A stretch of 38,830 bases of DNA from Lentimicrobium sp. (lineage in GTDB: Bacteria; Bacteroidota; Bacteroidia; Bacteroidales; Lentimicrobiaceae). Made by a program: the position numbers and the translations under genes. Below, piece after piece: positions 2,425-19,641 of the stretch. How positions within the stretch are numbered: position 1 is the first letter of the stretch; every line of letters begins with the position of its first letter. The stretch is from the NCBI GenBank assembly GCA_019429275.1, contig JAHYJC010000044.1, positions 1 through 38,830 on the forward strand, written 5' to 3'. The notes under the pieces are model-generated. The model was given only the letters and a program-made list of their open reading frames with translations. It did no database searches and was not told the DNA's origin.

Positions 2425-3801
2425 TTAAAAACTATATTTCAATTTAAACATAAACATATTGAAGTCCTTCAGATTGGAAAACAAATTATCTCCTTTGCCA
2501 TCAAAAATGGTGGTTGAAACAGTGATTTCTGAATTAATAGTGGCTTTGTAAGCAATCTCAGGCATATACACAAGGGCATAATTATCTTTTATATTATTCC
2601 AGTCGGTAACTATGAAACCACCACCAATAGGAGCTACTTTTAACTTTTCATTGAAGAAATTCTTTTCGTACCGCAAAAAGAAATAGTCATTCAGGTTTTC
2701 GGCTCCTCGCTCGTGAATAAATCCGTGCATATACTGAAAATTAAGATACGAACCATCTGAAAAATGGTAATCGCTACCAACAACAAATTTAATGTAAGGC
2801 TTTGTTTTGTCTAGAATTAAGGAATCCTGGGTAACGGGAACGGGTGACATAGGATAAAAAGCAGACAAATCATTGGTCATGATTATGTTTTCATCGGGGA
2901 TAAATGCTGCTGCTTCGCCCCAAAAACCTGCACCAGCAATGCTTGTCGAAAAATCGGCTCCTATTATGTGAGTTCTTGCAAACGAAAGTTGTGAATTGAT
3001 ATTAATTTCGCCAATGGCGTCAACAGGTAAAAAAGTATTTCTTGTAGCAAAAGGCAAGCCATCGTATCCCCAAACATAACTCAGAGAAAAGTCAACACCT
3101 TTAGCAAATCCTTTAAATTTTAAGGCTGCTGTAGAACTTTCGCCCAAATTATATTTAGGCATCATTAAAGTATCAGAGAAACTTTTTAAAACCATTCCTT
3201 GAGGTAATGTCATAGACGGATTTAAAGCATTTGCAAAAATGCCGATAGGCATATTGGCTGGTTGGAAAAATGGGATAAAAACCCCTTGAAGTGAGAAGTC
3301 GTTGTTTAAATAGTAATTTAGGTTAATAGCATCAGAACCACGTCGGCGACCAAAATCTAAAATGTCTTCCAAGTCCAACGGATTGAGATTGTCAGTAGGG
3401 TTTAGCTTATCGGCAGTTCCCCAAACAATGCGTTGACGACCAATGGTGACATCTAAATTTTTAGTAAGAAAACCATACAACTGAAGATATGCTTCCCTGA
3501 TTTCCAGATTGTAAGGGTCAATAATTCCTTTATTGTAAAGGTCAGATGATGAATTAATATTGGGCAGACCAATATTACGTAACCATACTTCGCCATGAAA
3601 TTTAGCTTTGTCTGTACTTTTGTCAAGGTTTAAAGTCAAACGGTTTTCGTTCCATGCCCAGTCATTCTTGTCTTTGAGCAGGAATCGGTCATCGATTAGT
3701 AATTCACCCGAAATTTTAAGGTTATTCTCTTCTTGAGCCTTAACAATGCTTGTAATGGCTATGAGAAGAAGTAGAATTGAAAATAACTTTATGTGTTTCA
3801 T
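2425..3801 (-). CDS. outer-membrane beta-barrel protein (DUF1302-like)
   Basis: This 458-residue protein starts with a signal peptide (hydrophobic to about residue 22, then AQEEN) and continues with alternating beta-strand-like segments ending in an aromatic C terminus (MFKLKYSF), as expected for an outer-membrane barrel. The stretch IGRQRIVWGTADKLNPTD resembles a motif of DUF1302-type barrels, which often accompany RND transporters. It is the last gene of the TetR-RND operon and begins three bases after the membrane-protein gene before it. The context suggests that it is the outer-membrane exit or receptor for whatever the MMPL transporter and LolA-like carrier move, which is an inference. 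Beta-barrel nature is well supported; family name is moderately supported. Confidence 0.75.
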   Translation of the reverse strand: MKHIKLFSILLLLIAITSIVKAQEENNLKISGELLIDDRFLLKDKNDWAWNENRLTLNLDKSTDKAKFHGEVWLRNIGLPNINSSSDLYNKGIIDPYNLEIREAYLQLYGFLTKNLDVTIGRQRIVWGTADKLNPTDNLNPLDLEDILDFGRRRGSDAINLNYYLNNDFSLQGVFIPFFQPANMPIGIFANALNPSMTLPQGMVLKSFSDTLMMPKYNLGESSTAALKFKGFAKGVDFSLSYVWGYDGLPFATRNTFLPVDAIGEININSQLSFARTHIIGADFSTSIAGAGFWGEAAAFIPDENIIMTNDLSAFYPMSPVPVTQDSLILDKTKPYIKFVVGSDYHFSDGSYLNFQYMHGFIHERGAENLNDYFFLRYEKNFFNEKLKVAPIGGGFIVTDWNNIKDNYALVYMPEIAYKATINSEITVSTTIFDGKGDNLFSNLKDFNMFMFKLKYSF

Positions 3802-3804
3802 ATG

Positions 3805-4536
3805 TTAAGGTTTATTAGTTTGATTTAAATTTTTTTTTGACGAAACATTGCGATTTGTAAAAAACCCGATTCCGGTCAAGATGAAGGCAGCCCCAAACAA
3901 GAAAATGGGCCAGTAAAAATTGTCAGGATAATATGTTGACGTTATATCAAAAAGATCTTTTGTGGGTAGTGACCAGATATCAACAAATGAATAGTATTTA
4001 AATATAAATCTGATATAGTCTTGGGTAAAAGATATAATGACAATTACTGAGCCTAAAATTAAAAATAAAAGTTCAATGGATTTTAAATGACCCTGTTTAT
4101 GGCTTGAAGAGAAATAGAGTATTAATAAGGCAAATGCAATCATAATAAATGATAGAATTAATGGAGCTATTACGGGACCAATCCAGGCTACAGGCAGCAG
4201 GAATAAAATATCCATTGTCAGAAAAGATTCGGGCCATTGTATTAATAGTTTCAGAAAGACATAGTAAAAAATATCCCAAACGGCAAAAGAAAACAAAAAG
4301 TAAGCAAACCTTGTAATGGCTGATTTGCCTGCAAGAATACTTACGGATAAAAGCATAAGCAAAGAAAACATTTCTCTTATTATTTCTGTTGTTGCAAGCG
4401 GTCTTTCGATAGGCTGTAAAGGGAAGTCAAATCCATTGGGATATATAATTTCCCTAAGGTAAATTACGATTGAACTTTCGAAGAAGCCCATGGAGACCGC
4501 AAAAACTGTTATCCAAATTATTGTTTTTAGTTTCAT
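3805..4536 (-). CDS. polytopic inner-membrane protein of unknown function
   Basis: This 243-residue protein has about six hydrophobic segments (near residues 5-25, 55-72, 78-97, 105-140, 153-172 and 210-227), with loops containing ESSIVIYLREIIYPNG and the aromatic-rich SFVDIWSLPTKD. I recognise no catalytic motif and no named family. It lies between the glycosyltransferase (with its decayed duplicate) and the outer-membrane barrel, in the same direction and three bases from the barrel gene, so it is very likely part of the envelope-lipid operon. It could be a membrane partner of the soluble glycosyltransferase or an accessory of the transporter; the sequence alone cannot decide. The start ATG at 4536 directly precedes the first hydrophobic helix. 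Confidence 0.8.
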   Translation of the reverse strand: MKLKTIIWITVFAVSMGFFESSIVIYLREIIYPNGFDFPLQPIERPLATTEIIREMFSLLMLLSVSILAGKSAITRFAYFLFSFAVWDIFYYVFLKLLIQWPESFLTMDILFLLPVAWIGPVIAPLILSFIMIAFALLILYFSSSHKQGHLKSIELLFLILGSVIVIISFTQDYIRFIFKYYSFVDIWSLPTKDLFDITSTYYPDNFYWPIFLFGAAFILTGIGFFTNRNVSSKKNLNQTNKP

Positions 4537-4542
4537 TTTTTT

Positions 4543-4666
4543 TAATAAATTAAAGTTTCCACACCAAATTTTGAAGTTCGCATTTCCTCCAAAAATTGGC
4601 AGTACATCCTTCTTTTATTGTTTTCTCCTGGTTATACGCACAAATTATGGCCGATATTTTACTCAT
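4543..4666 (-). pseudogene. internally deleted second GT2 glycosyltransferase
   Basis: An ATG at 4664-4666 overlaps the TGA of the upstream glycosyltransferase (ATGA) and encodes MSKISAIICAYNQEKTIK, identical at 14 of 18 positions to the start of that gene. The frame then breaks. KDVLPI and, one frame away, EEMRTSKFGVETLIY follow; these match residues about 142-163 of the intact gene (KEDIIPILDKMKESRFGVETLLY region). So a tandem paralogue has lost roughly residues 19-141 and everything after ~163, plus a frame slip in a run of T. The leftover open frame is 38 codons and ends at 4550. Confidence 0.8.
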
Positions 4667-5358
4667 TGTTTCACTCTTTTAGAAATTTGCTTTTCTACAG
4701 ATTTTAGCAAAAGCTCATAATTTTTAATGGCAGTATATGCAATTTCCCAACCTTCGTTAATATAGCCTGTTGTTGCCTTAAACGCTGACATTTTCTTGTA
4801 CTTATCCTTATGTGCCATCCCTTTTAATCTTATAAATTTTATGGATTTGCCAATCGATATATAATAAAAATACAATAGGGTTTCTACACCAAAACGTGAT
4901 TCCTTCATTTTATCAAGAATTGGTATAATATCTTCTTTGTATAAAGCTCTTTCGCCTGTCAATATTTTTAAAGGGTTTACGTCCTGATTTAAAATATTTA
5001 CAGTAGAATAGCCTAATACCATGTCCGATTCTTCTATTAATAATGGATTGGTTAATTGATTAATGTATCCCTGAATAATGTTCGACTGGTCGGCATCAAC
5101 AAATAGCATAATATCAAAGATTGAATTTTCAACTCCCACAGCCATTGCGTAGCCTTTCCCTCTGTTTTCTGTTAAATGGATTGCCGTTATCTCAATCTCT
5201 TTCTGCAGCTCCTCAATTATTTTCTTAGTACTATCCGAAGACCCATCGTTAACTACAATAATCTCACTAACAATTAAAGATTCTGAAACTGAAAGAATGA
5301 CATCTTTTAGCGTTTTCTCTTCGTTATATGCGCAAATTATTGCGGATACCTTTTTCAT
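4663..5358 (-). CDS. family 2 glycosyltransferase
   Basis: This 231-residue soluble protein has the GT-A nucleotide-sugar fold: an N-terminal SAIICAYNEEKTL strand, NDGSSDST (residues 38-44) for nucleotide binding, and FVDAD (about 87-90) as the metal-binding DxD. There is no transmembrane segment. Proteins of this type move a sugar from UDP- or GDP-sugar, or dolichyl-type donors, to a lipid or polysaccharide acceptor on the cytoplasmic side. It overlaps the upstream acyltransferase gene by four bases (ATGA), and a decayed duplicate starts with the same overlap at its 3' end. The context, with two acyltransferases, a lipase and a lipid-type RND pump, suggests a glycolipid head-group step. Acceptor and sugar are unknown. 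Confidence 0.88.
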   Translation of the reverse strand: MKKVSAIICAYNEEKTLKDVILSVSESLIVSEIIVVNDGSSDSTKKIIEELQKEIEITAIHLTENRGKGYAMAVGVENSIFDIMLFVDADQSNIIQGYINQLTNPLLIEESDMVLGYSTVNILNQDVNPLKILTGERALYKEDIIPILDKMKESRFGVETLLYFYYISIGKSIKFIRLKGMAHKDKYKKMSAFKATTGYINEGWEIAYTAIKNYELLLKSVEKQISKRVKQ

Positions 5359-6179
5359 ATTGCGTTTTTTAAGTTATACACCTGTTTTTTTACAAATTGT
5401 GCCCAATCGTGGTGAGACCTTGACATATCGAAGGTGCTATATGAAATTGGCTTGCCTATTTTAACCCTTATGGTTTTATTTCGTTTGTTAAATATTTCAT
5501 GAGGCAATAGAACTAATTCCAAGGTTTTACTTATTCCAAAAGTTTTTCGGGCGATGTATATAAAGTAAAATAGAAGTGAATTTCGCCCATAGAAATAAAA
5601 TGGAACAATGTTACGCTGACTCGCAACCGCTTTCTTAATAAAACTTTTTTGCCAATCTCTATCCTCAACTTTTCCTTTTTTAATTCTCGAAACAAGACCA
5701 GCCGGAAAATGAGTTATGGGGATATCAGAATTAAATACTTTTTCCAAATCTATAACATACTCTCTTGAATTAGTTCCAAATACATTTACCGCAGCAATAT
5801 TTCCTTTTAAATGGGGGATAAGCATAAATACGTTGTTGCCGATAGCCCTGAAATCGCCATATTTTTCACCAACTGTGTTGGTTAGAATTAAGCCATCAAC
5901 AAATCCAAAGGGATGATTTGCCACAAAAAAGCACCTGCCATTTTCAGGTAAATTTTCTTTGCCAACTATTTCAACCTTTATATTAAGCTCGTCAATTATT
6001 TTGGGTAAAAAATCAACTCCTTCGAAATTTGCGTAAACAGATAGAATTCGATTTATCTCATTTTGCCTGATAATTAGCTTAATCAGGTAAATCGCAAAGT
6101 CGGGCAATCGTTTAAGAAGTTTCGAATCACTTGCTTTAATGAGCTTGTGAATATTGATATATTCTCTTGTTGTTTGCAT
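5355..6179 (-). CDS. lysophospholipid acyltransferase-like protein (hemolysin/OlsA type)
   Basis: This 274-residue protein carries the acyltransferase motif NHPFGFVDG (His89, Asp95), an HX5D spacing seen in the OlsA/hemolysin-type branch instead of the usual HX4D. It also has FPAGLVSR (about residues 158-165), which corresponds to the glycerophosphate-binding block. Such enzymes transfer an acyl chain from acyl-ACP or acyl-CoA to a hydroxyl of a lyso-lipid or lyso-aminolipid at the inner face of the cytoplasmic membrane. It is nine bases from the patatin gene and overlaps the glycosyltransferase gene by four bases. With a second acyltransferase of the PlsC type in the same operon, the two may act on different positions of one lipid. 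Ornithine- or glycine-lipid synthesis is a possible role, but no OlsB partner is present. Confidence 0.85.
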   Translation of the reverse strand: MQTTREYINIHKLIKASDSKLLKRLPDFAIYLIKLIIRQNEINRILSVYANFEGVDFLPKIIDELNIKVEIVGKENLPENGRCFFVANHPFGFVDGLILTNTVGEKYGDFRAIGNNVFMLIPHLKGNIAAVNVFGTNSREYVIDLEKVFNSDIPITHFPAGLVSRIKKGKVEDRDWQKSFIKKAVASQRNIVPFYFYGRNSLLFYFIYIARKTFGISKTLELVLLPHEIFNKRNKTIRVKIGKPISYSTFDMSRSHHDWAQFVKKQVYNLKNAI

Positions 6180-6188
6180 TATATTAAT

Positions 6189-7043
6189 TCAAAATGCTTT
6201 AGTTTTTTGTAGCGCTTTTTTTGTTGCATTTTCTCCTAATTCAATGAGTTCCTTTGCCCTGTAAAAATCAAAAGTGTTGGCAGAATCGTGCGGGATGTTA
6301 ATTACCAAATCAGGTTTGTGTTTTTCAATACTCATTTTTGCAATTCTATGCACCATTGCCGATGTAGTACCGCTTAAAAGTGAGTAATACCCTGCACTGT
6401 TCTTGTCACCAGTTAAAATTAAGGTCGATATGGTGTTCATCAACCTATTTAGGTATCCATTGTTAGTATTTGTTTCTTTTGGAATATCAGTTTTTTTGTC
6501 ACCGTACAAGTTCACTACTATCAGCAAATCTCCATTCTTACGGGACACGTATTCAATAGGAATTGGATTCAGAATACCGCCGTCAACAAGAATGGTATCA
6601 GTGTATTTTACCGGTGTAAAAACTGCCGGGATTGCAACGGATGCCCGGGCAGCTTCATAAAAACTTCCTTTTGTAAATACTACTTCTTTTTCATGAAGTA
6701 TATCAGTAGCAACTGCAGCAAAGGGGATGGGCATATCTTCAATATTCATATCCGGGATAAAAGTCTTCATTTTATCAAAAACCCGCTCACCCTTTAATAA
6801 GCCATTATATGCAAGCGTAAAATCCATAAATCCCCAGACATCCCTTTTGTTAAAGGAGCTTACCCACTCGGTATATTCCTGTATTTTTCCCATGGCGTAA
6901 AGCCCTCCCATAACCGCTCCTATGGAAGAACCTGAAACAGAAGTTATTTGAAAACCTTGTTTTACCAATTCATTGATGACCCCAATATGGGCAAGCCCCC
7001 TTGAGCCTCCGCTCGATAGTACTAGTGCTACATTCTGTTTCAT
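6189..7043 (-). CDS. patatin-like phospholipase (RssA/NTE type)
   Basis: This 284-residue protein is a complete bacterial patatin: the glycine-rich oxyanion loop SSGGSRGLAHIG (residues 10-21), the nucleophile elbow GSSIG with Ser40, and the dyad aspartate in DGG (Asp154). These Ser-Asp enzymes cleave acyl chains from phospholipids or lyso-lipids. There is no signal peptide, so it probably acts in the cytoplasm or at the inner membrane. It sits between two acyltransferase genes, three bases after the PlsC-like gene and nine before the OlsA-like gene. That arrangement suggests deacylation-reacylation, which is remodelling of an existing lipid instead of synthesis from scratch. That interpretation is an inference from gene order. 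Confidence 0.92.
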   Translation of the reverse strand: MKQNVALVLSSGGSRGLAHIGVINELVKQGFQITSVSGSSIGAVMGGLYAMGKIQEYTEWVSSFNKRDVWGFMDFTLAYNGLLKGERVFDKMKTFIPDMNIEDMPIPFAAVATDILHEKEVVFTKGSFYEAARASVAIPAVFTPVKYTDTILVDGGILNPIPIEYVSRKNGDLLIVVNLYGDKKTDIPKETNTNNGYLNRLMNTISTLILTGDKNSAGYYSLLSGTTSAMVHRIAKMSIEKHKPDLVINIPHDSANTFDFYRAKELIELGENATKKALQKTKAF

Positions 7044-7046
7044 GGT

Positions 7047-7595
7047 CTATATTTTTATTTCAAGCGAAAAATTTTCGGGATATTTTGGTGACACATCAGA
7101 ATATAGTTCAGCAACTTCCCGCCTAACTGCTTCAATGCTATTTAAGTTATCGATTACTCCTTTAACCCCGATTTCCTTTCTCTTATAATCAATACTGCCA
7201 ACAACAATTGGAACATTTGCTCTTTCTGCCATATAGTAATACCCTTTTTTCCAGCGTGTTGTTTTTGCCAATTGCCCTTCCGGGGATAATACGATATGAA
7301 GTTCGCGGCTATTGTTAATCAATTCAGCAACATAATCAATGTATTTTTTGTTTTCATATACTGGTATCGAACCAAAGATTATGAAAAAGTATTTCAATGG
7401 AAATTTGAAAAATTCTTTTTTTGATAGAAATTTGTATTTTATACCTAACTGCATCAGATAAAGTTTTCCATATAAACCATCCCAGTAACTTGTGTGTGGT
7501 GCAAAAATTATAACAGATTTATTAAGGGTTGGAAAATCACCAACAATTTTCCAACCACAAACTTTTGTCAATATGTATCCTGAAAAGGTTTTCAT
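7047..7595 (-). CDS. PlsC-type 1-acylglycerol-3-phosphate acyltransferase-like protein
   Basis: From the ATG at 7595 (a TTG nine bases further up is possible but less likely) this encodes 182 residues. Motif I is APHTSYWDG (His34, Asp39, HX4D), and LSPEGQLAKTTRWKKGYYYMA (about 103-123) covers the EG block and the basic segment that binds the phosphate head group. GSIPVYE (about 75-81) matches motif II. The length is shorter than standard PlsC (about 240) but typical for compact bacterial versions of about 180 residues. It would transfer acyl chains to a lyso-lipid at the membrane. It lies 13 bases after the LolA-like gene and three bases before the patatin gene. Confidence 0.85.
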   Translation of the reverse strand: MKTFSGYILTKVCGWKIVGDFPTLNKSVIIFAPHTSYWDGLYGKLYLMQLGIKYKFLSKKEFFKFPLKYFFIIFGSIPVYENKKYIDYVAELINNSRELHIVLSPEGQLAKTTRWKKGYYYMAERANVPIVVGSIDYKRKEIGVKGVIDNLNSIEAVRREVAELYSDVSPKYPENFSLEIKI

Positions 7596-7608
7596 ACTAA
7601 ACAACCAA

Positions 7609-8343
7609 TTATTGCTTTAACCTCCTAACCGTAAAATCGTCATCGGTCAACCCTGTGTCGTATTCCACATCCGACATTCTCATTATGGTTTTGTGGTTCT
7701 TTTTAAGGTCGGTCATCTCAATCTCTTCGGCATTCCAATAATTACCAATCTTTTTGAAAGTATATTTAGCTTCTTTTACTTTTGAATTGCCCCTGTCGTA
7801 ATACTCCATTAATTCAGGATAGTAATTCGTTTTATTCACATGTACTATTACTTTTGAGTAATCGGAACGCCCTTTTGGCGTAAGTTCAAGAACGAAAACA
7901 TCACCATCATCTTTTATCAGTTTAGGCGTGTACTTATCCGAAAAAAGTACGGATTCCATATCATCATAAGAAAAATCGGTACCTGCAAAGTTTTGATTTT
8001 TTGCGCTGGTTGCAATTCGTCTTTCTTTACCAAATGCGGGTAAATACAAATACATTACATCATTAGGCAATGACAACACAGCAATGCCAGATTGCGAAGC
8101 AGGAGCAGTAAACCGAAATATTCGTTTATCGGTTCCTTTCTGCTGAATGGTTGCTTCACGAATTTCCTCCCTTCCATTCCTGTCAATCAGGATAATTGTA
8201 TTCTTGCCTGTCATGTCTTTGGGTGAATACATAACATCGTCCATTTTCTTTAAAATGGTACCTGCATCTTGTGCATTGGCCGAAAACATACTTCCTGCTA
8301 CTATAATGGCGGTAATTACCGCTGTTTGAATTCTTGATTTCAT
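7609..8343 (-). CDS. periplasmic LolA-like outer-membrane lipoprotein-sorting protein
   Basis: This 244-residue protein has a clear signal peptide (MKSRIQTAVITAIIVAGSMF, cleavage after ANA before QD). The mature part starts ILKKMDDVMYSPKDM and continues with beta-strand-rich segments, including YLYLPAFGKERRIATSAKNQ and GTDFSYDDME. That pattern is typical of the LolA_like / outer membrane lipoprotein-sorting family, which is regularly encoded beside MMPL-type RND transporters. LolA-fold proteins bind acyl chains in a half-open barrel and ferry lipids through the periplasm. The gene is 19 bases after the MMPL gene. I infer that it takes a lipid from that pump and passes it to the outer-membrane barrel encoded at the end of the operon. 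Confidence 0.87.
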   Translation of the reverse strand: MKSRIQTAVITAIIVAGSMFSANAQDAGTILKKMDDVMYSPKDMTGKNTIILIDRNGREEIREATIQQKGTDKRIFRFTAPASQSGIAVLSLPNDVMYLYLPAFGKERRIATSAKNQNFAGTDFSYDDMESVLFSDKYTPKLIKDDGDVFVLELTPKGRSDYSKVIVHVNKTNYYPELMEYYDRGNSKVKEAKYTFKKIGNYWNAEEIEMTDLKKNHKTIMRMSDVEYDTGLTDDDFTVRRLKQ

Positions 8344-8362
8344 AATTTTTACTTTTTAATTG

Positions 8363-10621
8363 TTAATGATTATTTGCTACTATTTTGCGTTTTCTGTTTG
8401 CCAGTATAAGAATAGCTGGCAGCAGTGATAGCGCGCTAAACCCGGAACCAATCATGCTAACGCCAATCAGTAATCCGAAATTCTGTAAGGGTACGATTTG
8501 TGAAAACAGAAGCACTAAGAATCCTGCTAAAACCGATACTACATTAATTATTATTGCCTTGCCGCTCAATAAAATAACGCTTTCGATTGATTTTTCGGCA
8601 TCTCCGTTTTTTAGCAGATGATTATTAAATCCGGTGATAATATGGATAGAATAATCAATGCCTATACCCAAAGCAATACTGCCTACCAGTACGGTTGCTA
8701 TATCGAGCGGTATTCCGGTTAGTCCCATAATACCTAACAGGACAATAATCGTTGCAACCACGGGAATCGCAGCAAAAACTCCTTTAGAAAAAGACCTCAA
8801 TATTGTACTAACAATCAATATAACCAGTGCGATAGCTATTAATAAGCTGTTCCGCTGGCTGTTTAATAAACTGCTGTTGAGCTTTTCGTAAACGGATGGC
8901 ATACCTGTAAGCTCTATTTTACAATATTCATTCTGGTTTTCTTCAATAAAACGGTTCATTTTTTCAGTAAATGCTTCAATGTTTTTAGTATCAACCGAAG
9001 CAAATTTTGATTGAATTACTCCTTTGGTAAGATCGTTGTTAACCAGTTGGGGCATCACATCCTGACCGTCGAGCAGGAACCATAATTGCTCAATTTTTGC
9101 CTTGTCATCGGGTATTTTTTTCCCTTCGCCCATAGCATCGTTCATTTGTTCTATAAGGTCGGCAACCGATTGGGCTACGTCAATACTTGGGTCTTCTTTC
9201 ATAAAGCGTTGCGTTTCAATCATCTTTTGCAGAACTTCGGGGCTTTGCATATCGCCCTCAAAAACAACGAATATGGGTAGCGAACCTCCAAACTTCTTTT
9301 GCATCACCTCTTCTGCCACCCTGGTAGGATTATCTGCTTTAAAATAATCCGCCATGTTTACACTGGTTTCAATTTGAAAAATCCCGATAACACCTACCAC
9401 AAGGATTATTGCCCATGCAGTAACTGTATATTTAGGATGTGTAAAAAGGGTTTTAGTTAGCGGTATTAATATCTTATGGGTTAAGACCGTTTCCTTTTCT
9501 GTGTCTTCAACAACTTTTTTCTTTCGGTACATTGACAAAGCCGAAATCAGGGCTGGAACAAAGAATATGGACAACAACAAAGCGATGATTGTACCTACTG
9601 CTGTGAATATCCCAAAGTCCCTTATCATTGTAAGGTATGCACCAAAAACGAACGAAACAAAACCTATTGCAGTGGTTACTGCTGCCAATATGACCGGAAT
9701 GGTAATATACGCAACCGCCTTAATTAATGCTTGTTTTCTGTCCTGAATGGCCATGTGGTTAATACTGTTCAGCACATGAATGGTATAGACGCTTCCCACC
9801 GCAAGCAGAACAACCGGAATGATGTTTGATATGATGGTAAGCTCATAGCCTGCAGCTGACATGATTCCCAAAGTCCAGACTACAGAGATCCCGGCAGTAA
9901 GCAACGGCAACAATACGCCGCGAAATGATTTAAAACTAAACAAAAGAATAATTGCTATAACAAGAAAAACAATGGGTATCAACCAAATAATGTCGGATAT
10001 TATTAAATCATTAATATCGTTCATCATCATTGGGAGCCCGCCAAAGTATAGTGTTTCTGGCAGGTTCATATTTTCAATCTTGTTCTTTATTTCTTTTGCA
10101 ATAGTTTGATTATCTGCATCCGGAAGCAGGGTAAACATAATTGCTGTCGCCTTACAGTCATCGGAAACGATTGCCCCCCTGTACATTTCTTTTGACAGAA
10201 CATAAGCTTTAAGGCTATCTAAGTCAGATTGGTCTGTCGGCAGTTCATACTCATCAACCAGCTTTCCTATTTCAATCCCCCACTCGGAGCTTTTGATATC
10301 AAGTATATTCGTTAAGCTGGTTACTGTAGAAACGCCTTGTGTGTATCGAATGCTGTCAGTAATTTGTTTGATATGCCCAATTACCTCTGCATTAAAAATA
10401 TTTTCGGTTTCCAAAACAATCATGGCCATATCATTCCCGCCAAATTCAGTTCCTATGTCCTTGTAAAGTTTAGCAACCGGTTCGTCATCGGGCAAAGAGC
10501 TGATGATATCGGAATTGATATGCAAATTTTTTGTCTGGTAACCAAAAAAAATGGTTAATGCCAAAACAGCTAAAACTATTAGCCATCTTAGTCTGATTAT
10601 TGATTCTACAAATCTGTTCAT
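8363..10621 (-). CDS. RND/MMPL-family transporter (HpnN-like)
   Basis: This 752-residue protein shows the two-fold RND layout: TM1 (residues 13-27), a periplasmic domain, a block of about five helices (about 210-365), TM7 (about 398-415), a second periplasmic domain, and a final helix block (about 600-745). The second half contains GSIALGIGIDYSIHII, the conserved proton-relay region of MMPL and hopanoid-transporter (HpnN) proteins, and GSVYTIHVLNSIN is the matching segment in the first half. Proteins of this group move lipids or hydrophobic molecules out of the inner membrane using the proton gradient. It is the first structural gene after tetR, and a second copy of the TetR-type operator lies just before its ATG. 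The cargo is unknown. Confidence 0.93.
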   Translation of the reverse strand: MNRFVESIIRLRWLIVLAVLALTIFFGYQTKNLHINSDIISSLPDDEPVAKLYKDIGTEFGGNDMAMIVLETENIFNAEVIGHIKQITDSIRYTQGVSTVTSLTNILDIKSSEWGIEIGKLVDEYELPTDQSDLDSLKAYVLSKEMYRGAIVSDDCKATAIMFTLLPDADNQTIAKEIKNKIENMNLPETLYFGGLPMMMNDINDLIISDIIWLIPIVFLVIAIILLFSFKSFRGVLLPLLTAGISVVWTLGIMSAAGYELTIISNIIPVVLLAVGSVYTIHVLNSINHMAIQDRKQALIKAVAYITIPVILAAVTTAIGFVSFVFGAYLTMIRDFGIFTAVGTIIALLLSIFFVPALISALSMYRKKKVVEDTEKETVLTHKILIPLTKTLFTHPKYTVTAWAIILVVGVIGIFQIETSVNMADYFKADNPTRVAEEVMQKKFGGSLPIFVVFEGDMQSPEVLQKMIETQRFMKEDPSIDVAQSVADLIEQMNDAMGEGKKIPDDKAKIEQLWFLLDGQDVMPQLVNNDLTKGVIQSKFASVDTKNIEAFTEKMNRFIEENQNEYCKIELTGMPSVYEKLNSSLLNSQRNSLLIAIALVILIVSTILRSFSKGVFAAIPVVATIIVLLGIMGLTGIPLDIATVLVGSIALGIGIDYSIHIITGFNNHLLKNGDAEKSIESVILLSGKAIIINVVSVLAGFLVLLFSQIVPLQNFGLLIGVSMIGSGFSALSLLPAILILANRKRKIVANNH

Positions 10622-10635
10622 ATTTTTATTTATTA

Positions 10636-10664
10636 TTTGTACTATTATCGTTTTATAGTCAGTT
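10636..10664. promoter_or_regulatory. second TetR-type operator, in front of the RND gene
   Basis: The left arm TTTGTACTA (10636-10644) is identical to that of the operator before tetR. The spacer is again 11 bases and ends in GTTTTA, and the right arm TAGTCAGTT keeps only the first four bases of TAGTACAAA. It lies 15-43 bases before the RND start codon at 10621. I infer a weaker second site for the same regulator. Confidence 0.6.
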
Positions 10665-10679
10665 TTAGTTAAAAAAAAA

Positions 10680-11261
10680 TCAGGTGGCTAAACCCTTATT
10701 CAATATGTTTATTAACCCATCGAAATAGGGTGAGTATTTCTCGTACTTATTTTGCAGAAAAAATGGTATTTCAAGACCTTTTAGGACCATTAAGAACATA
10801 TCCAGCAGAACGTCCATTTCTGTAATTAAAGTAAATTCGCCTGTATGAACACCTTGAAGAATGATTTTCCTCAGGTTTTCTTTTTCCCACGTATCTAAAT
10901 CAGTTCTTAGGTCGTCAATAAAGTGGAAGTGCTCAAAAAAATCGGCCCTTATCGTTTCATGGTAGCTTGCTGTTGCATTAAGGATTTCCATTCTTTTGAC
11001 AAGATAGCTATGCAGCTTTTGAGAAGCATCCAAATCAGAATTGTTAGTAATAAGTCCCAACTGGCTTTTAAGAATAGTAATTTCCTTTAAAATCACTTCC
11101 CTGAATAAATCCTCTTTACTAACGAAATGGTAGTATAAAGAGCCTTTAGCTTTGCGTGCAACCTTTGCGATTTCGTCCATAGAGGTTTTGTGAAACCCGA
11201 ACCGGCTAAACAGTTGGTTTGCAACTCTCAATATTGAATCTTTAGTAGAATCAATGCTCAT
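10680..11261 (-). CDS. TetR-family transcriptional repressor
   Basis: This 193-residue protein (ATG at 11261; a TTG two codons further up abuts the operator) has an N-terminal helix-turn-helix of the TetR type, with ILRVANQLFSRFGFHKTSMD followed by EIAKVARKAKGSLYYHFVSKEDLF (residues about 8-50). A helical ligand-binding C-terminal part follows. It is the first gene of the lipid operon, 58 bases from the RND gene. Two palindromic sites, one over its own -7 box and one before the RND gene, strongly suggest that it represses itself and the operon. The ligand is likely to be a fatty acid, acyl-CoA or membrane-active compound, as for many TetR proteins beside RND pumps, but this is inferred. Confidence 0.92.
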   Translation of the reverse strand: MSIDSTKDSILRVANQLFSRFGFHKTSMDEIAKVARKAKGSLYYHFVSKEDLFREVILKEITILKSQLGLITNNSDLDASQKLHSYLVKRMEILNATASYHETIRADFFEHFHFIDDLRTDLDTWEKENLRKIILQGVHTGEFTLITEMDVLLDMFLMVLKGLEIPFFLQNKYEKYSPYFDGLINILNKGLAT

Positions 11262-11267
11262 ATTCAA

Positions 11268-11296
11268 TTTGTACTAAAAATGTTTTATAGTACAAA
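11268..11296. promoter_or_regulatory. perfect palindromic operator of the TetR gene
   Basis: TTTGTACTA (11268-11276) and TAGTACAAA (11288-11296) are perfect inverted repeats with an 11-base spacer that is itself nearly symmetric (AAAA...TTTT). The right arm overlaps the -7 box TATCTTTG of the tetR promoter, the expected position for autorepression. Confidence 0.75.
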
Positions 11297-11321
11297 GATA
11301 GATGTATTTTTTTATCTCAAA
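11293..11321 (-). promoter_or_regulatory. promoter of the tetR-RND lipid operon
   Basis: On the minus strand TTTG (11321-11318) is followed after 17 bases by TATCTTTG (11300-11293). This is a good match to the Bacteroidota TTTG/TAnnTTTG promoter, about 30 bases before the tetR ATG. The -7 box overlaps the palindromic operator. Confidence 0.6.
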
Positions 11322-11592: not shown

Positions 11593-12090
11593 TTATTGAA
11601 AATAGGTAAATACTCGATTTGTCATTTGGATGTTTTCTTCTTCAGAAAGATTGGCCAGCTCACAAAGATGGTTCATTGCTAAAAACCCTCTTTGTTCTAA
11701 ATAATTCTGAAGCCGTTTACCATTAATTTCTTTTTCGGCTTCTGGCATTAGAAAAGGGAGGAGAAAACATTTTATTATTACAAATAGCCCTCCTCCATTT
11801 TTCGATAAGAAATATAGCCAATATGGAAATTGAGAATCTAATTCAACTACATAATCTCTTACTTCAGGAATTTCCCAAAGTTCTTCTGCTGTTTGATTGT
11901 AACCATCAAATGAAATATCAACACGTTCACGAAAATATTTTATAAAGGTAATGTTTGATGTTAACTGACCAAGTAAATTCATAGGCCCAGTAAAATCTTT
12001 TCTAACGACTTCTTCTTTAGAAATTGTAATGTTTAAGTAATCAATTCCAGTTGATATTAGCTCCTCTATTTTTAAATTTTTGTTATCCAT
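11593..12090 (-). CDS. CRR6-like domain protein of unknown function
   Basis: From the ATG at 12090 (MDNKNLKIEEL) the protein has 165 residues; a start 12 codons further up is open but adds a low-complexity basic stretch. It contains EELWEIPEVRDYVVELDSQF followed by PYWLYFL, which resembles Bacteroidota proteins annotated with a chlororespiratory reduction 6 domain. That name comes from a plant assembly factor, and the bacterial function is unknown. A hydrophobic stretch GGGLFVIIKCFLLPFLMPEA follows near residue 100. It lies about 175 bases after the metallopeptidase gene in the same direction and may be the last gene of that block or a separate unit. Assignment is by motif memory only. Confidence 0.65.
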   Translation of the reverse strand: MDNKNLKIEELISTGIDYLNITISKEEVVRKDFTGPMNLLGQLTSNITFIKYFRERVDISFDGYNQTAEELWEIPEVRDYVVELDSQFPYWLYFLSKNGGGLFVIIKCFLLPFLMPEAEKEINGKRLQNYLEQRGFLAMNHLCELANLSEEENIQMTNRVFTYFQ

Positions 12091-12266
12091 TATTTTATTT
12101 TTTTTGTTTATCTGAATGACATTCATTGGTGTTGTGCGTTCGTTGGACTACTTTATTTTTGATTGCCTGTTGGTTTAGCGTTGGGACCGGGAAGCTCTTT
12201 TGCAAATTTTGGGTTGTGTCAAGGCTTGTGTGGCTTTCAAATGTTGTGCTTTTTTGTTTAGGCAAA

Positions 12267-12962
12267 TCATGCTAATAGTTTCTCCAATTTCAATTTCCAC
12301 TTTTCCCAGTCCTTCATTTCCTTTGTTTGTAAATCTAAGAATTTCTTTGTGTGGTCGTGATAAATTAAATGGCAAAGTTCATGTAAGATAACATATTCAA
12401 TGCAGCCTTTAGGTGCTTTTATCAATTCAGGATTTAAAATGATTTTGCCTTTAGGAGTGCAGCTTCCCCAACGTGTCGGCATGTCTCTTAATACTATAGA
12501 ATCCGGTTCAACCCTATACTTTCTAAATTTATCAATCAAAGGCTCAGCAATTGCATGAAATTTTATCCGTGCATTTTGTAAATACCAACCCATAAGCAGG
12601 TCCTTCGCTCTGTCCTTATCCCGGGTAACCACCTCAATGAATTTGCCTTTTAGTTTTACCGATTCAACACTTCCGATCTTTATTTGCAAGCGATATTGTC
12701 TGCCTAAGTACAAATGTGTTTCTCCACTTACGTATTTCCTTTTTGGTGTCTTTGGTTGGAAGGTAAGAAAAAAGCTCAATTGTTTAATAATCCAGGGAGC
12801 TTTCTTTTTTACTTTTTCTTTCACCTTTTCGATGGAAGTGTCAACCGGGGCTTTAACCAGTACTTCCATTTCAGGAGTTACAGTAATTCCAAGTGACTTC
12901 CTTTCTGAGTACTCTAAGCGAAAATCAATTTTTCTGCTTCCAAATTGTATGGCTTCTGTCAT
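12267..12962 (-). CDS. YgjP-like (DUF45/M48-type) metallopeptidase of the RM operon
   Basis: The start is fixed by the neighbour: the HsdR stop TAA and this ATG share one base (TAATG at 12964-12960), giving 231 residues starting MTEAIQFGSRKID. The protein has the YgjP layout with RWGSCTPKG (Arg164-Cys168) and the zinc-metallopeptidase motif VILHELCHLIYHDHTKKF (His194, Glu195, His198; third ligand probably His204). Members of this family are common companions of type I restriction operons; their substrate there is not established. Translational coupling to hsdR suggests matched expression, and a role in processing or controlling the nuclease subunit is a reasonable inference. Confidence 0.88.
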   Translation of the reverse strand: MTEAIQFGSRKIDFRLEYSERKSLGITVTPEMEVLVKAPVDTSIEKVKEKVKKKAPWIIKQLSFFLTFQPKTPKRKYVSGETHLYLGRQYRLQIKIGSVESVKLKGKFIEVVTRDKDRAKDLLMGWYLQNARIKFHAIAEPLIDKFRKYRVEPDSIVLRDMPTRWGSCTPKGKIILNPELIKAPKGCIEYVILHELCHLIYHDHTKKFLDLQTKEMKDWEKWKLKLEKLLA

Positions 12963-15900
12963 TACTTGTAACGGATTTTGGCTACGTCTATGCAATCACC
13001 GGCAATTTTATCCATTTCTTCAAACGTTAACTCTATTTGATATTTATCGCGGACTTCGTCAATCAGGTAGTCGCCGATCTCTATCAATAATTTACCCGTT
13101 ATGTTTGACTTATACTGCCAGTCAACAATTGGCTTTTCGTTGTCCAAAACAGCAAGTTTTATCAGTTCATCAACCTTTAAAGCGGCTTGTGTTGATATCT
13201 CTTTGCGGATCATATCATCCTGAATCTTATCAGTAAGTGCTTCAACCGTTAAGCCGTAAAAAGCCTTTGCAACATCTCTGTCTTTAAGCTGTTCCGGTAT
13301 GTCATCATCAGTATGCGTCAAGACATTGTTCATGATATCTTGAACTCTTCTCAGGTATTGTGCTTCGCTAATGCGTTTGGCTTCATAATCGGCAATAGCC
13401 TCCCTTAGCATTTGCGAAAACTTCTTATAGAAAGCTGGGTCTTCATCCATTTTCTCGGTGATGTGCTTCGCTGTTCTGCTTGCAATCTTGTCTGCCTTGG
13501 CTGCTTTTCCAATTGTGTTTTCAACTTCCTGCTGAAATTTGTCTTTATCAAAAATGTTTACCAATTCGGTAATGGTTTCTATTTTCTCGGTGGTGATGTG
13601 GGTATCAATCAATTTTTGAATCTGCCCTTCATATTGTTTGTAGTCAATTTCATCGCTGTATCTTTCAATCACTGCCAAACGGAGTTTCAGGAACATAGTT
13701 AAATCTTCTTTGTAGCGATTGATGGTTTTTTCTTCAACATCTTTGTGAAATTGAATAGATGATAAGGCCAGTTTCAAACCCTTGGCAAAGGCTGCCAGTT
13801 TATCGTAAAATAGAACTCTGATTGCTTCATCTTTCAATAATTGCTGATAAGCTTCTGCATCCCTTTTGTTGGTAATGGTTTTAAAAATGTCCCACAAGTC
13901 AGAATGCTTTTGTGGCAGCTTTTTGATTTCATCGGCAATATTGGTGAGCGTTCCTGCCAAATCTTCCTCGTCAAAATCTTCAAATGAAGAATACATCAGC
14001 AAGGCATCATCCAAATTTTCAATTACTCCGTAATAGTCAATGATGTAACCAAACTCCTTGTCAGGATAAATTCGGTTTACCCTTGCAATGGCTTGTAAGA
14101 GTTTATGCCCTTGTAAGTTTCTTGTAAGATATAGAACCGTGTTTTTGGGTGCATCAAATCCGGTGAGCAGTTTATCAACAACGATAATTATTTCCGGGAC
14201 TTTCTGATTTTTGAAACGGCTGATAATGTTCTTTTCATAGCTTTTTGAGTTGCCATGTTCGCCCATCATTTTTTTCCAGAACTGATTTTCTTTTTGGGTT
14301 GATTTCTCATACGCACTATCTTCCCCTTCACGCTCGTCAATGGATGAGATCAAAACCTCACAACTAACAATACCAATTTCATCTAAGTATTCTTTGTATT
14401 TGATGGCGTTAACTTTCTTATCACAAACCAGCTGTCCTTTAAATGGTGTTCTGCCTTGCCAATTGTCGCGGAAATGATAGCTGATGTCCCATGCTATCAT
14501 TCGCATTTTCTGCTCGGCTGAATTCAAATGGTCGTATCGGGCAAACTTCTTTTTAATGTCTGCCTTTTGATAGTCGGTCAAGGGCTCTGAAACCATTCCG
14601 AAAAAAGTATCAATCGGACTGGCATTTACATCCTGCAAAGCCAACCTTCCTTCATACAACAATGGAACAACGGCTTTGTCGTATACTGCCTCGTCAACTT
14701 TGTAGGTATCAATCATACCACCAAATTTGGCTGCTGTGCTTTTGTCCTTTTTGAAAAGTGGTGTTCCGGTAAGGGCAATGAAACAGGCATTTGGCAAAGT
14801 CTTCTGCATGTCGATATTGAAAACGCCGTATTGTGTTCTGTGTCCTTCATCAACCAACACAAAAATTTCGTGGCTTTCTAAAGGCTTGCTGATCTTCCTT
14901 ACTGCTGCAACAAACTTGTTGATAATGGTTGTTACCACTGCATCGCTTTTGCTTTCCAGCAACTCTACTAATCGCTGCCCGGTAGTAGCGTTTTCTACAA
15001 ACTTGCCGCACTTGCGGAATGTGCCTGTGATTTGATTGTCCAAATCGGTTCGATCGGTTACCAAAATAATTTTCGGGTTGCGAATACTGGGTTCCATGGC
15101 AATGGCTTGTGCCAACATTACCATGGTTAATGATTTACCGCTTCCTTGTGTGTGCCAGATAACACCGCCTTTGCGTTTGCCATTTTCCACATGCTGAATC
15201 CGTTTCATGGATTTTTTAATGGCGAAAAACTGCTGATAACGGGCTACTTTCTTTTCGCCATTGTCGAACAAAACGAAATTGAAAATTATATCCATCAAGC
15301 GTTCTGGTTGGCATAAGCCAAACAAATACGCGTCCTGTTCTGTTGGAAGAATTTCTTCTTGCTCTAAAGCATCAAAGTATTGGCGAACATATTTGAAGCG
15401 GTCGGCAAACAGTTGGTCTTTTTGAATACCGGAAAGTGGTTGATTTTTAATCTCTTTTAATTTTTCATTGTGCTCTTTTAACTTTTCATTTTCTTCAAAC
15501 TTCTCCTGCCATTTTGCCCAAAACTTTTCTGGTGTGGCATTGGTGGCAAAGGCTGCTTCTTGTGTTGCTATGCTCAGTGTCAATTGAGAATACACATACA
15601 AACTTCGGATACCGTCTTCCTGCTGGTTGCGTAAATGCTGACTGATGGCCTGCTTCAACGGCTCTTTCATATCAGGTCGTTTGCACTCAATGATGCAAAG
15701 CGGAATACCGTTTACAAACAATACCAGATCAGGGCGGTAATGCTCTTTGTTTGCAGAACGCATCACACTGAATTCTTCGGTTACATGAAATACATTGTTG
15801 CTGATGTTTTTCCAGTCAATGTATTGCAGCGTAAAACTCTTTTTGTCGCCATCCACACTTTGTTCCAATGCCTGACCCAAAGTGAGCAAGTTGTATGCCT

Positions 15901-16192
15901 TTTCACTTGCTGCAATGTAGCCTTCGTTCATAGGAAGGTTTTTCAGAATCTGGATACCCTTGTCTATGTTTGGATCACTTATGTAGGTTGTTTTAGTAGA
16001 ACTTACATTTTTCTCTGCATTAATTTTCTTCAACTGCTTCCGCAACAAATCTTCGAGCAATACATTCGTGGTTTTGCCGCCTCTCAACCGTTCGGCTTCT
16101 GCCGGACTCACGTAGTTATAACCCAGCTTCACCAGCATTTGTAATGCAGGAATCTGGCTGATATGGTCTTCTTTAAAACTGGGTGTCTCCAT
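12962..16192 (-). CDS. hsdR: type I restriction enzyme, HsdR (R) subunit
   Basis: At 1076 residues this is a full-length HsdR. The N-terminal endonuclease domain has the PD-(D/E)xK signature YRPDLVLFVNGIPLCIIECK (Asp155, Glu169, Lys171). The translocase has the Walker A HTQGSGKS (about residue 345-352), the DEGHRTQYG box II, the LTGTP motif III and downstream helicase motifs (DKLLTGFDAPKNTVLY, QAIARVNRIYPDK). A C-terminal helical part binds the methylase complex. It uses ATP to pull DNA past the bound complex and cuts at a distance from unmethylated sites. It is separated from hsdM and hsdS by five genes, which is unusual; the order is M, AlbA, S, three cassette genes, AlbA, R. All key residues are present. 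Confidence 0.95.
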   Translation of the reverse strand: METPSFKEDHISQIPALQMLVKLGYNYVSPAEAERLRGGKTTNVLLEDLLRKQLKKINAEKNVSSTKTTYISDPNIDKGIQILKNLPMNEGYIAASEKAYNLLTLGQALEQSVDGDKKSFTLQYIDWKNISNNVFHVTEEFSVMRSANKEHYRPDLVLFVNGIPLCIIECKRPDMKEPLKQAISQHLRNQQEDGIRSLYVYSQLTLSIATQEAAFATNATPEKFWAKWQEKFEENEKLKEHNEKLKEIKNQPLSGIQKDQLFADRFKYVRQYFDALEQEEILPTEQDAYLFGLCQPERLMDIIFNFVLFDNGEKKVARYQQFFAIKKSMKRIQHVENGKRKGGVIWHTQGSGKSLTMVMLAQAIAMEPSIRNPKIILVTDRTDLDNQITGTFRKCGKFVENATTGQRLVELLESKSDAVVTTIINKFVAAVRKISKPLESHEIFVLVDEGHRTQYGVFNIDMQKTLPNACFIALTGTPLFKKDKSTAAKFGGMIDTYKVDEAVYDKAVVPLLYEGRLALQDVNASPIDTFFGMVSEPLTDYQKADIKKKFARYDHLNSAEQKMRMIAWDISYHFRDNWQGRTPFKGQLVCDKKVNAIKYKEYLDEIGIVSCEVLISSIDEREGEDSAYEKSTQKENQFWKKMMGEHGNSKSYEKNIISRFKNQKVPEIIIVVDKLLTGFDAPKNTVLYLTRNLQGHKLLQAIARVNRIYPDKEFGYIIDYYGVIENLDDALLMYSSFEDFDEEDLAGTLTNIADEIKKLPQKHSDLWDIFKTITNKRDAEAYQQLLKDEAIRVLFYDKLAAFAKGLKLALSSIQFHKDVEEKTINRYKEDLTMFLKLRLAVIERYSDEIDYKQYEGQIQKLIDTHITTEKIETITELVNIFDKDKFQQEVENTIGKAAKADKIASRTAKHITEKMDEDPAFYKKFSQMLREAIADYEAKRISEAQYLRRVQDIMNNVLTHTDDDIPEQLKDRDVAKAFYGLTVEALTDKIQDDMIRKEISTQAALKVDELIKLAVLDNEKPIVDWQYKSNITGKLLIEIGDYLIDEVRDKYQIELTFEEMDKIAGDCIDVAKIRYK

Positions 16193-16388
16193 TTTATTGA
16201 GCTTTGAATGATCAACTATGAGTTATGAATTGGGATGATCCCGCATTAAATGCAAAGAATTATCCTCTTGTAAGCCATTAACTGCTTATTCGTTTCTTCT
16301 AATAGCATTTCTAATTTGTTTAAATTAGAACGCGAGTTCCTTTTTCTAACTATTTGTATTTCAGAGTTTTTATTATAAGCGCCATTGG

Positions 16389-16437
16389 CTCTTCTCTTAG
16401 ATCTTCTCTTAAACCTTCTCTTAAACCTTCTCTTAAA
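16389..16437. repeat. 12-bp tandem repeat at the end of the second AlbA gene
   Basis: On the minus strand the unit AGGTTTAAGAGA occurs three times in a row, followed by a diverged copy AGATCTAAGAGA. The stop codon of the AlbA-type gene at 16433 lies in the first unit, and every unit repeats the same in-frame TAA. A different frame reads RFKR repeats for a while. Confidence 0.75.
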
Positions 16438-18094: not shown

Positions 18095-18117
18095 ATTCAA
18101 AAATTATTTATTGTCGG

Positions 18118-19224: not shown

Positions 19225-19641
19225 TTATTGACTTATTAAATAATACGCTACATCATAGGCATCATCCTGATACTTATTTTTTGCACTGCCATTTTTTGCG
19301 TTCTTTTTAAAATATGCAATTGTGGTTTGTTTCCATACTTGCTCCACATCAATCTTTTCGTATAGCTGTATAATGCCTTCCAATTTAAAGGAAATTGGAG
19401 AAGGGGCACGGTCTCCTTTTCCATTGGCATTCCTTGCAACAATGCCGATTTTTGCTGCTCCTATTGAGTCAAATGCTGCATTAATTTGGTCACGAAACTG
19501 CCTTACCTGATTGGGTTTGGTTGGGTCGTCAATACCAAACTTGGCAGATTCGTTTGTTTGCGTGATGTTTCCGGCTGCATCTTTTTCCAGCACAACCATA
19601 ATTGCCTCTGTGGACTTGATTTGTATTCCTATTGTCTTCAT
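19225..19641 (-). CDS. DUF3010-like protein with probable RNase H/RuvC-like fold
   Basis: The start at 19641 (MKTIGIQIKSTEAIMVVLEK) is chosen because it lies one base after the stop of the upstream gene; an upstream in-frame start would run deep into that gene. The product is 138 residues. The N-terminal beta strand GIQIKSTEAIMVVLE, the PNQVRQFRDQINAAFDSIGA helix followed by KIGIVARN, and ISFKLEGIIQLYE match the pattern of DUF3010 proteins, which are predicted to adopt an RNase H-like fold. The expected acidic positions are partly visible (Glu13, Glu97 region), so nuclease activity is uncertain. It is tightly packed between the unknown gene and the kinase, and is probably cotranslated with both. 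Confidence 0.68.
   Translation of the reverse strand: MKTIGIQIKSTEAIMVVLEKDAAGNITQTNESAKFGIDDPTKPNQVRQFRDQINAAFDSIGAAKIGIVARNANGKGDRAPSPISFKLEGIIQLYEKIDVEQVWKQTTIAYFKKNAKNGSAKNKYQDDAYDVAYYLISQ

Follow-up and report, generated by a model that had tools for sequence, protein, structure and literature searches.

How Gram-negative bacteria carry lipids other than lipopolysaccharide and lipoproteins to the outer membrane is a largely open question, and an operon in a member of the Bacteroidota puts it in a particular form: do its nine genes, which run from a TetR-family repressor to an outer-membrane barrel, lay down one dedicated lipid pathway, or do they join an exporter to enzymes that can be exchanged? 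The operon lies on the minus strand, from 11261 to 2425, of the window analysed here, a stretch of 38,830 nt that is the entire contig JAHYJC010000044.1 of a 4.19-Mb draft genome of Lentimicrobium sp. (GCA_019429275.1). Its open reading frames (ORFs), all nine of which the sequence and the ORF list confirm to be co-directional as the initial annotation had stated, encode in order TetR, an MMPL pump, a LolA-like carrier, a small acyltransferase (AT1), a patatin, a GlsA-like acyltransferase, a GT2 glycosyltransferase, a six-helix membrane protein and a DUF1302-like barrel.

The stable part of this operon is the pump with its operators, and the enzymes are an exchangeable cassette. The reading we favour, and to which we give an even chance, is that of a single TetR-autorepressed operon encoding an envelope-spanning exporter of amphiphilic lipids that carries an exchangeable lipid-tailoring cassette. 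The initial annotation had proposed one dedicated glycolipid-trafficking pathway; its division of the genes into envelope-spanning transport and lipid tailoring is supported, the pathway itself is plausible but too fixed, and both the ‘glycolipid’ label and the statement that the genes could supply every step from deacylation to exit are best kept conditional. The literature searched (MMPL, LolA, DUF1302/DUF1329, HAE3, patatin), with few subscription journals covered, gave no description of an enzyme-bearing pump operon.

Recurrence of the pump and variation of the enzymes

At E<=1e-100 the MMPL protein has matches in 36 of 198 genomes of the order and in 3 of 296 across the phylum. The relatives compared (loci numbered with the prefix L) are the best 80 of 189 confirmed matches, a choice by which the survey leans to close relatives, together with 37 further stretches and the window itself; from these 118 loci 13 near-copies (at least 98% MMPL identity) were dropped, and in the 105 that were kept the genes are plain open frames labelled with profiles built from the same loci. 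A complete TetR-MMPL-LolA-barrel run is present at 52 of the 105 non-redundant loci, the other 53, where contig ends or real absence account for its lack, being left out of the cassette counts. Within the complete operons, 26 hold at least one lipid gene, 23 hold nothing else and 3 hold some other insert; these enzyme-free operons, and the loci without a complete run (in part contig ends), contradict the expectation that the nine-gene set is conserved as a whole. Patatin genes occur in 22 of the 52, AT1 and GT2 genes in 20 each, GlsA-like genes in 9 (that of L102 being a weak match, rather PlsC-like), methyltransferase genes in 7, KASIII-like, GNAT and SDR genes in 6 each, six-helix and LysE-like genes in 3 each and acyl carrier protein (ACP) genes in 2. 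The same gene types recur in the same operon in many genomes, and this, with the mostly low dN/dS values given below, marks the operon as more than a chance grouping.

Gene order, which had been expected to be kept, is kept in part: LolA stands directly behind MMPL in 48 of the 52 operons and patatin ahead of GT2 in 17 of 18, but AT1 (n=20) precedes MMPL in 8 and follows it in 12, and the GlsA-like gene (n=9) lies between patatin and GT2, as in the window, in 5, between MMPL and LolA in 3 and elsewhere in 1. The patatin-GlsA-GT2 core of the window is found again in L110 and L119. One cassette-bearing host, Marinilabilia salmonicolor MSL42 (L109), is a named strain rather than a metagenome bin.

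The closest relative, L106 (MMPL 90% identical), has the order TetR-MMPL-LolA-KASIII-AT1-patatin-GlsA-GT2-GT2-six-helix (TM6)-barrel, its GlsA gene being split into two overlapping frames, so that its two GlsA labels stand for one gene. Ten of the 105 loci, L106 among them, have a KASIII-like gene in the operon run; against NF006829 (cut-off 249 bits) these genes score 249 in L069, at the cut-off, and 231 in L106 and 217 in L086, under it. The window operon has no KASIII-like gene, the best match in its genome being 27% identical to that of L106, and Pfam and NCBIfam profiles found no ketosynthase, dehydratase or ACP among its nine proteins. The lack of a biosynthetic core that the initial annotation noted therefore holds as a trait of the window copy and not for the family, in which ACP genes (runs of L069, L086, L113 and L144) and serine palmitoyltransferase-like genes (L102, L126 and L132) are also present. 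Just downstream of the barrel gene in L126 the serine palmitoyltransferase reaches 676 bits (cut-off 640); one relative has an OlsG/PmtA-like methyltransferase (60.7 bits, cut-off 350), the methyltransferase of L086 is nearest to the model for phthiotriol dimycocerosate methyltransferase (241.5 bits, cut-off 300), and thioesterase genes are found in relatives as well. Taken together, these genes of the relatives (KASIII-like, ACP, methyltransferase, serine palmitoyltransferase-like and thioesterase) suggest that the cargo consists of acylated lipids.

L126 (17728-22055) and L132 have, downstream of their export genes, genes for serine palmitoyltransferase, a CDP-alcohol phosphotransferase-like protein, a small membrane protein, an SDR and a GNAT, a possible sphingolipid link. 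L102, from another class, has phasin-like, ABC1 kinase-like, LysE-like, thioesterase and serine palmitoyltransferase-like genes between LolA and the barrel. We considered the GNAT (c0) and SDR (c1) as ceramide synthase and reductase, which their place behind serine palmitoyltransferase in L126 suggested, and dropped the idea; c0 matched no NCBIfam model at E<=1e-5 and nothing in the PDB at E<=0.01, and neither gene is part of the window operon. Since the best serine palmitoyltransferase match in the window genome (351 bits) falls under the cut-off of 640, a sphingolipid cargo is not favoured there.

Operator-like sites and control of the operon

Upstream of tetR lies the 27-mer TTGTACTATAAAACATTTTTAGTACAA, with perfect arms of 8 bp, and a TAnnTTTG box, which we take to be the -7 box of the Bacteroidetes promoter consensus, overlaps its start (Table 1). 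With at most 3 mismatches a pattern derived from the family is present upstream of tetR at 40 of 67 loci as compared with 1 of 1340 single-base shuffles, a count that is partly circular because the pattern was read off the same loci, and in the gap after tetR at 30 of 71 loci as compared with 3 of 1420 shuffles, the pattern used for this second site having come mainly from the first. A promoter box lies over the operator in 26 of the 40 loci (mean TAnn frequency there, 0.12).

The position of the second site is informative at the 16 loci where a gene other than MMPL follows tetR. There the gap after tetR holds a site with at most 3 mismatches in 2 and at most 4 in 5, and the 112 nt at the start of MMPL hold one in 5 and 10, respectively, as compared with 2 and 5 of 320 shuffles; where an acyltransferase stands next to tetR, the best site has 3 mismatches in L148 and L140, 4 in L169, 7 in L158 and 9 in L081. 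These counts showed that the second operator-like site, as judged by sequence pattern, belongs to MMPL and not to whichever gene follows tetR. Transcription under TetR control thus probably starts at two places, ahead of tetR and ahead of MMPL, the latter start also serving all genes behind MMPL, and TetR would bind at both. In the window all enzyme genes lie behind MMPL, so that the sites before tetR and MMPL would place all nine genes under the same repressor, in agreement with the single TetR control initially proposed.

Mosaic history of the operon

Compared gene by gene, the parts of the operon have different histories. Against L110 the window is 79% identical in MMPL, 90% in patatin, 90% in GlsA, 97% in GT2 and 86% in the barrel (dS is 2.18 for MMPL and 0.16 for GT2), and against L106 it is 90% identical in MMPL, 87% in GT2 and 81% in the barrel. 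The nearest relative is L106 for tetR and MMPL, L132 for LolA, L119 for AT1, L110 for patatin and GT2, L124 and L119 alike for the barrel, and for GlsA a 156-aa piece of L106 (92%) followed by L110 (90%). With MraY as the sole yardstick gene for host kinship, L106, L107 and L124 have MMPL proteins 89-90% identical to that of the window and MraY proteins 61%, 68% and 61% identical to that of its genome, whereas two genomes of the window's own genus, with MraY at 79% and 81%, gave no MMPL match at E<=1e-100. Considering this contrast and the changing nearest relative, the operon seems to pass from one lineage to another and to recombine internally, and we find the pattern best explained by transfer between lineages with recombination within the operon.

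On a quick LG+G4 tree of the MMPL proteins, which leaves 29 of 98 inner branches open and joins some long branches, the cassette label (26 cassette and 25 other rows) needs 12 changes, the shuffled mean being 17.3 and 1 of 500 shuffles being as low as observed. The cassette is clustered on the MMPL tree, yet often gained or lost. Distances between MMPL proteins correlate with those of the barrel at 0.86, LolA 0.81, TetR 0.60, patatin 0.58, GlsA 0.49, AT1 0.28 and GT2 0.25 (Mantel values, in which shared ancestry and joint transfer are not told apart). Between the window and L106 dN/dS is 0.08-0.21 over the nine genes, with the exception of 0.53 for one 109-codon piece of the split GlsA gene of L106, and the genes of the operon are under purifying selection.

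The cassette operon of L114, whose contig bears the label Candidatus Marinimicrobia, has MMPL at 77% identity, the MraY of that genome being at 46-47%; this is either a transfer between phyla or a mis-binned contig. A plasmid origin was rejected: 68 of 72,556 plasmid records match MMPL, every one below 60% identity, and no plasmid link was found. Two genes upstream of the operon, at 12962-24935, the window holds a type I restriction cluster (HsdR, specificity subunit and HsdM) among whose genes stand those for a Schlafen/AlbA_2 protein, a protein kinase and DUF3010; a variable region of this kind agrees with transfer.

Features of the operon

Families were assigned by Pfam above curated cut-offs and by NCBIfam models with their own cut-offs; Pfam confirmed the families named in the initial annotation for eight proteins, and the six-helix protein matched none. 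From the ORF starts, the intergenic gaps from tetR to the barrel gene are 58, 19, 4, 3, 9, -4, 126 and 3 nt. As read from the sequence, tetR most likely starts at ATG 11261 (its ORF opens with TTG at 11267), which makes 11262-11321 its leader, and AT1 probably starts at ATG 7595, giving the 182 aa seen in L106, rather than at TTG 7604.

Table 1. Coordinates of the operon genes and of the putative control sites
Feature	Position	Strand	Remarks
TAnnTTTG promoter -7 box TATCTTTG	11293..11300	-	Upstream of tetR, overlaps operator
Putative TetR operator, 27-mer, inverted repeat TTGTACTA...TAGTACAA	11269..11295	-	Upstream of tetR
TetR-family repressor, 193 aa	10680..11261	-	TetR_N 59.9 bits, cut-off 24
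Second, weaker operator-like site, 3 mismatches	10638..10662	-	Before MMPL
MMPL / HAE3-like RND transporter, 752 aa	8363..10621	-	MMPL 150.9 bits; TIGR00921 HAE3 300.6 bits
LolA-like periplasmic carrier, 244 aa	7609..8343	-	PF17131 LolA_like 168.2 bits
AT1, small PlsC-type acyltransferase, 182 aa	7047..7595	-	PF01553 34.6 bits, cut-off 23
Patatin, RssA-like, 284 aa	6189..7043	-	PF01734 103.8 bits
GlsA-like (lyso-aminolipid) O-acyltransferase, 274 aa	5355..6179	-	Acyltransf_2 PF19576 183.2 bits
GT2 glycosyltransferase, 231 aa	4663..5358	-	PF00535 77.8 bits; DAD motif
Relic of second GT2	4549..4660	-	Similarity to second GT2 gene of L106
Six-helix inner-membrane protein, 243 aa	3805..4536	-	No family match
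DUF1302-like outer-membrane barrel, 458 aa	2425..3801	-	PF06980 28.4 bits, cut-off 23.2

For the MMPL protein the best NCBIfam model is that of HAE3 (E 2e-89), under its cut-off of 351.9 bits. The LolA-like protein has an N-terminal signal peptide, by inspection, and a PDB relative in 3bk5 (E 2.2e-22). The last protein likewise has a signal peptide and a C-terminal Phe; its predicted structure (pLDDT 79, with weak stretches) is a barrel, and in fold searches, which covered solved structures, it found porin-like folds (best E 8.2e-12, TM-score 0.42 by query length). A second TetR-MMPL-LolA-barrel operon on another contig of the same genome (L091, G000:C67) is enzyme-free, and its MMPL is 45% identical to that of the window. 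A separate ORF of the window, 11593-12126, matches Crr6 (chlororespiratory reduction 6) at 29.6 bits (cut-off 25) in this host of the Bacteroidota.

Tailoring enzymes and the six-helix protein

The enzymes of the window keep their motifs, HTSYWD and PEG in AT1 and GSSIG and DGG in the patatin, and by plain text patterns the same is seen across the relatives: GxSxG in 38/38 and DGG in 35/38 patatins, HX4D and PEG each in 35/37 AT1 proteins, D[AG]D in 38/39 GT2 proteins and NHPxGxxDG in 11/12 GlsA-like proteins. The patatin passes the Pfam cut-off and scores 176.9 bits with the RssA model, under its cut-off of 272.

The GlsA-like protein narrowly passes the NCBIfam GlsA model (269.9 bits, cut-off 260). 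It has no GlsB partner in the operon; the genome's own glsA-glsB pair lies apart, on contig C63 (346.5 and 470.4 bits), its glsA product being 36% identical to the operon enzyme. GlsA-like matches were found in 132 of 149 genomes and, among the matches listed, 14 genomes besides the window have one at 52-64% identity, the others being at 30-46%. Among 18 GlsA neighbourhoods, taken closest first from the 132 genomes with a match and several of them at contig ends, five (L235, L240, L243, L245 and L246, some likewise at contig ends) have the GlsA-like gene beside a gene like that of the phthiocerol dimycocerosate (PDIM) methyltransferase, and pump genes are absent from these stretches.

Within the 126 nt that separate GT2 from the six-helix gene lies what is left of another GT2 gene: two pieces (4609-4660 and 4549-4615) that match the second GT2 of L106 at 87% (52 nt) and 91% (67 nt) identity; the pieces overlap by 7 nt in the match, about 360 nt are lost between them and the 3' end is gone. 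Intact tandem GT2 copies are present in L106 and L119. Neither Pfam nor NCBIfam matches the six-helix protein at E<=0.1, and although AlphaFold2 gives it a confident fold (pLDDT 88) and 12 sequences share 26 invariant columns, solved structures gave no fold match (best E 0.52). Five loci have a LysE-like gene next to GT2 and show no six-helix gene. In a genome of another class (G035), L186:10096-19899 carries PlsC-like, patatin, six-helix and GT2 genes behind an AcrB-type RND pump, which with a TolC-like-looking gene replaces MMPL, LolA and DUF1302, so that this set of enzymes seems able to go with more than one kind of pump.

Proposed function and rival explanations

We propose that the MMPL protein, HAE3-like and presumably proton-driven, would take a lipid out of the inner membrane, that the LolA-like protein would ferry it through the periplasm and that the DUF1302-like barrel would put it in or beyond the outer membrane. 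The cassette enzymes would tailor this cargo before it reaches the pump, in the putative order that the patatin strips one acyl chain, the small PlsC-type and GlsA-like enzymes add acyl chains (the GlsA-like enzyme probably at the 3-hydroxyl of an N-acyl amino lipid), and GT2 and the six-helix protein add a sugar or move the lipid across the inner membrane.

More broadly, and as a tentative possibility, the operon may be a modular, horizontally moving outer-membrane lipid island, with a constant chassis of repressor, pump, carrier and barrel whose enzymes are swapped by intra-operon recombination, the surface lipid thereby being diversified in Bacteroidota as surface sugar is by O-antigen loci; the six-helix protein would then be a new membrane component (flippase or transferase) acting with GT2 and replaced by a LysE-type protein in other cassettes. 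The family links pump, carrier, barrel, repressor and possible cargo-tailoring enzymes in one compact set, and since its natural variants keep the pump and change the enzymes, the lipid could be compared across close relatives.

Several observations weigh against a tailoring exporter. The 23 enzyme-free operons include L107, with MMPL at 89% identity, so that the pump needs no enzymes in cis; a clade of 16 MMPL rows is without any complete TetR-to-barrel operon; because the second operator accompanies MMPL, an enzyme gene that stands ahead of MMPL does not in every case have an operator-like site immediately before it; and members of the close GlsA-like subfamily are also found away from the pump operon, 2 of the 18 neighbourhoods (L236 and L238) lying within it. 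From other organisms (the published work cited here and below is represented by excerpts), PG1178-PG1181 of Porphyromonas gingivalis shows strong induction when iron or hemin is limiting (PG1175-81 up 13.4- to 136.2-fold under iron depletion; log2 -7.4 to -8.1 for PG1178-PG1181 in excess hemin) (PMC10434189, PMC10470040), which makes a non-lipid, metal-linked cargo a real rival, and DUF1302/DUF1329 proteins of Pseudomonas putida are required for growth on Tween 20 (PMC10866462), which makes import possible.

It is unlikely, in our estimation, that the pump exports a small hydrophobic or metal-linked compound (a porphyrin, lipophilic siderophore or toxic amphiphile) and that the enzymes serve co-regulated envelope repair or membrane hardening. 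The enzyme-free operons and the iron and hemin response would fit such a cargo, as would the lowered monoterpene tolerance of an AmeABCD deletion (PMC6394551), but the P. gingivalis likeness is one of annotated gene order, and the frequent lipid acyl-, methyl- and ketosynthase genes, together with the KASIII-like and ACP genes of L069 and L086, would be left unexplained.

Improbable, too, is an inward system for the uptake or recycling of outer-membrane or environmental amphiphiles, in which the patatin would hydrolyse and the acyltransferases would salvage the chains. Most bacterial RND pumps of known function are exporters, which counts against uptake, as do the synthetic enzymes, GT2 and two acyltransferases in the window and the KASIII-like protein and methyltransferase in relatives. 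Patatins are hydrolases, however, and besides the Tween 20 requirement a Thalassolituus protein that has both MMPL and LolA-like domains, and the adjoining predicted porin, rise on long-chain alkane (PMC6304351).

That a recombining operon has picked up unlinked lipid genes as passengers, which would share none of its cargo, we regard as quite improbable. The 12 changes of the cassette label, the weak tracking of MMPL by AT1 and GT2 distances and the lack of a cassette in the close relative L107 agree with it, but random passengers would not so often be lipid genes, nor would they be expected to keep patatin before GT2 or to lie behind shared operator-like sites, and the cassette label is still clustered on the MMPL tree. 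Very improbable, finally, is a decaying remnant of a KASIII-containing cluster that makes no product, as the relic of the second GT2 and the absent KASIII-like gene of L106 might suggest, given nine intact frames with the dN/dS values above, kept motifs and operator-like sites, and the same patatin-GlsA-GT2 core in L110 and L119.

Relation to known systems

The tailoring exporter that we favour can be set beside several known systems. Mycobacterial MmpL7/LppX, which exports PDIM, likewise combines an MMPL pump, a LolA-fold carrier and lipid-synthesis genes, and the L086 methyltransferase is nearest, below cut-off, to a PDIM methyltransferase model; the mycobacterial envelope is a different one, and in the present family there are no polyketide synthases and there is an outer-membrane barrel instead. 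With the GlsB-GlsA glycine lipid synthesis of Bacteroides the operon shares an O-acyltransferase over the GlsA cut-off, but it has no GlsB, the glsA-glsB pair of the genome being separate.

Escherichia coli aryl polyene clusters (ApeD, ApeJ, ApeL, ApeM, ApeN) resemble the operon in their RND pump with LolA-like carrier (cf. ApeM and ApeL), lysophospholipid acyltransferase and glycosyltransferase/acyltransferase (PMC8253772), and the window's relatives add methyltransferase, KAS-like and ACP genes. The window's nine proteins, however, include no ketosynthase, ACP, dehydratase, reductase, acyl-ACP synthetase or DUF3261 protein, and do include a DUF1302 barrel, a patatin and a GlsA-like enzyme. 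The reading of the operon as an aryl polyene or flexirubin cluster in decay was rejected because the nine proteins gave no match to a dehydratase, reductase, ligase or DUF3261 protein. The BT2793-2795 bile pump of Bacteroides thetaiotaomicron, described in the excerpt as a tripartite efflux pump, was also set aside as a match.

P. gingivalis PG1178-PG1181 has, by annotation, the same order as the bare TetR-MMPL-LolA-barrel unit; it differs in its iron/heme regulation and in that no lipid enzymes are named in the excerpts. Further, PG1178-PG1180 is raised in an hmuS mutant (PMC13227078) and PG1178-PG1181 is about fourfold up in a diguanylate cyclase mutant (PMC10101095).

AmeABCD of Castellaniella defragrans, which comprises an HAE3 RND protein, a LolA-superfamily DUF1329 protein, a COG4447 protein and a DUF1302 barrel (PMC6394551), likewise encodes, in one conserved cassette, an RND protein of the MMPL/HAE3 kind together with a periplasmic protein of LolA fold and an outer-membrane protein of the DUF1302 family. 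By the models used here the window has the DUF1302 member and not HAE3, DUF1329 or COG4447: its MMPL is under the HAE3 cut-off, its carrier is PF17131 rather than DUF1329 (no other Pfam family at E<=0.1), and none of the nine proteins has a COG4447-like match among the Pfam models, which were used in place of COG models. In addition, the window operon includes a TetR gene and lipid enzymes. AmeABCD is nonetheless the nearest of the systems tested, and on the best reading the window operon is a variant of the RND/LolA-fold/DUF1302 exporter with a tailoring module.

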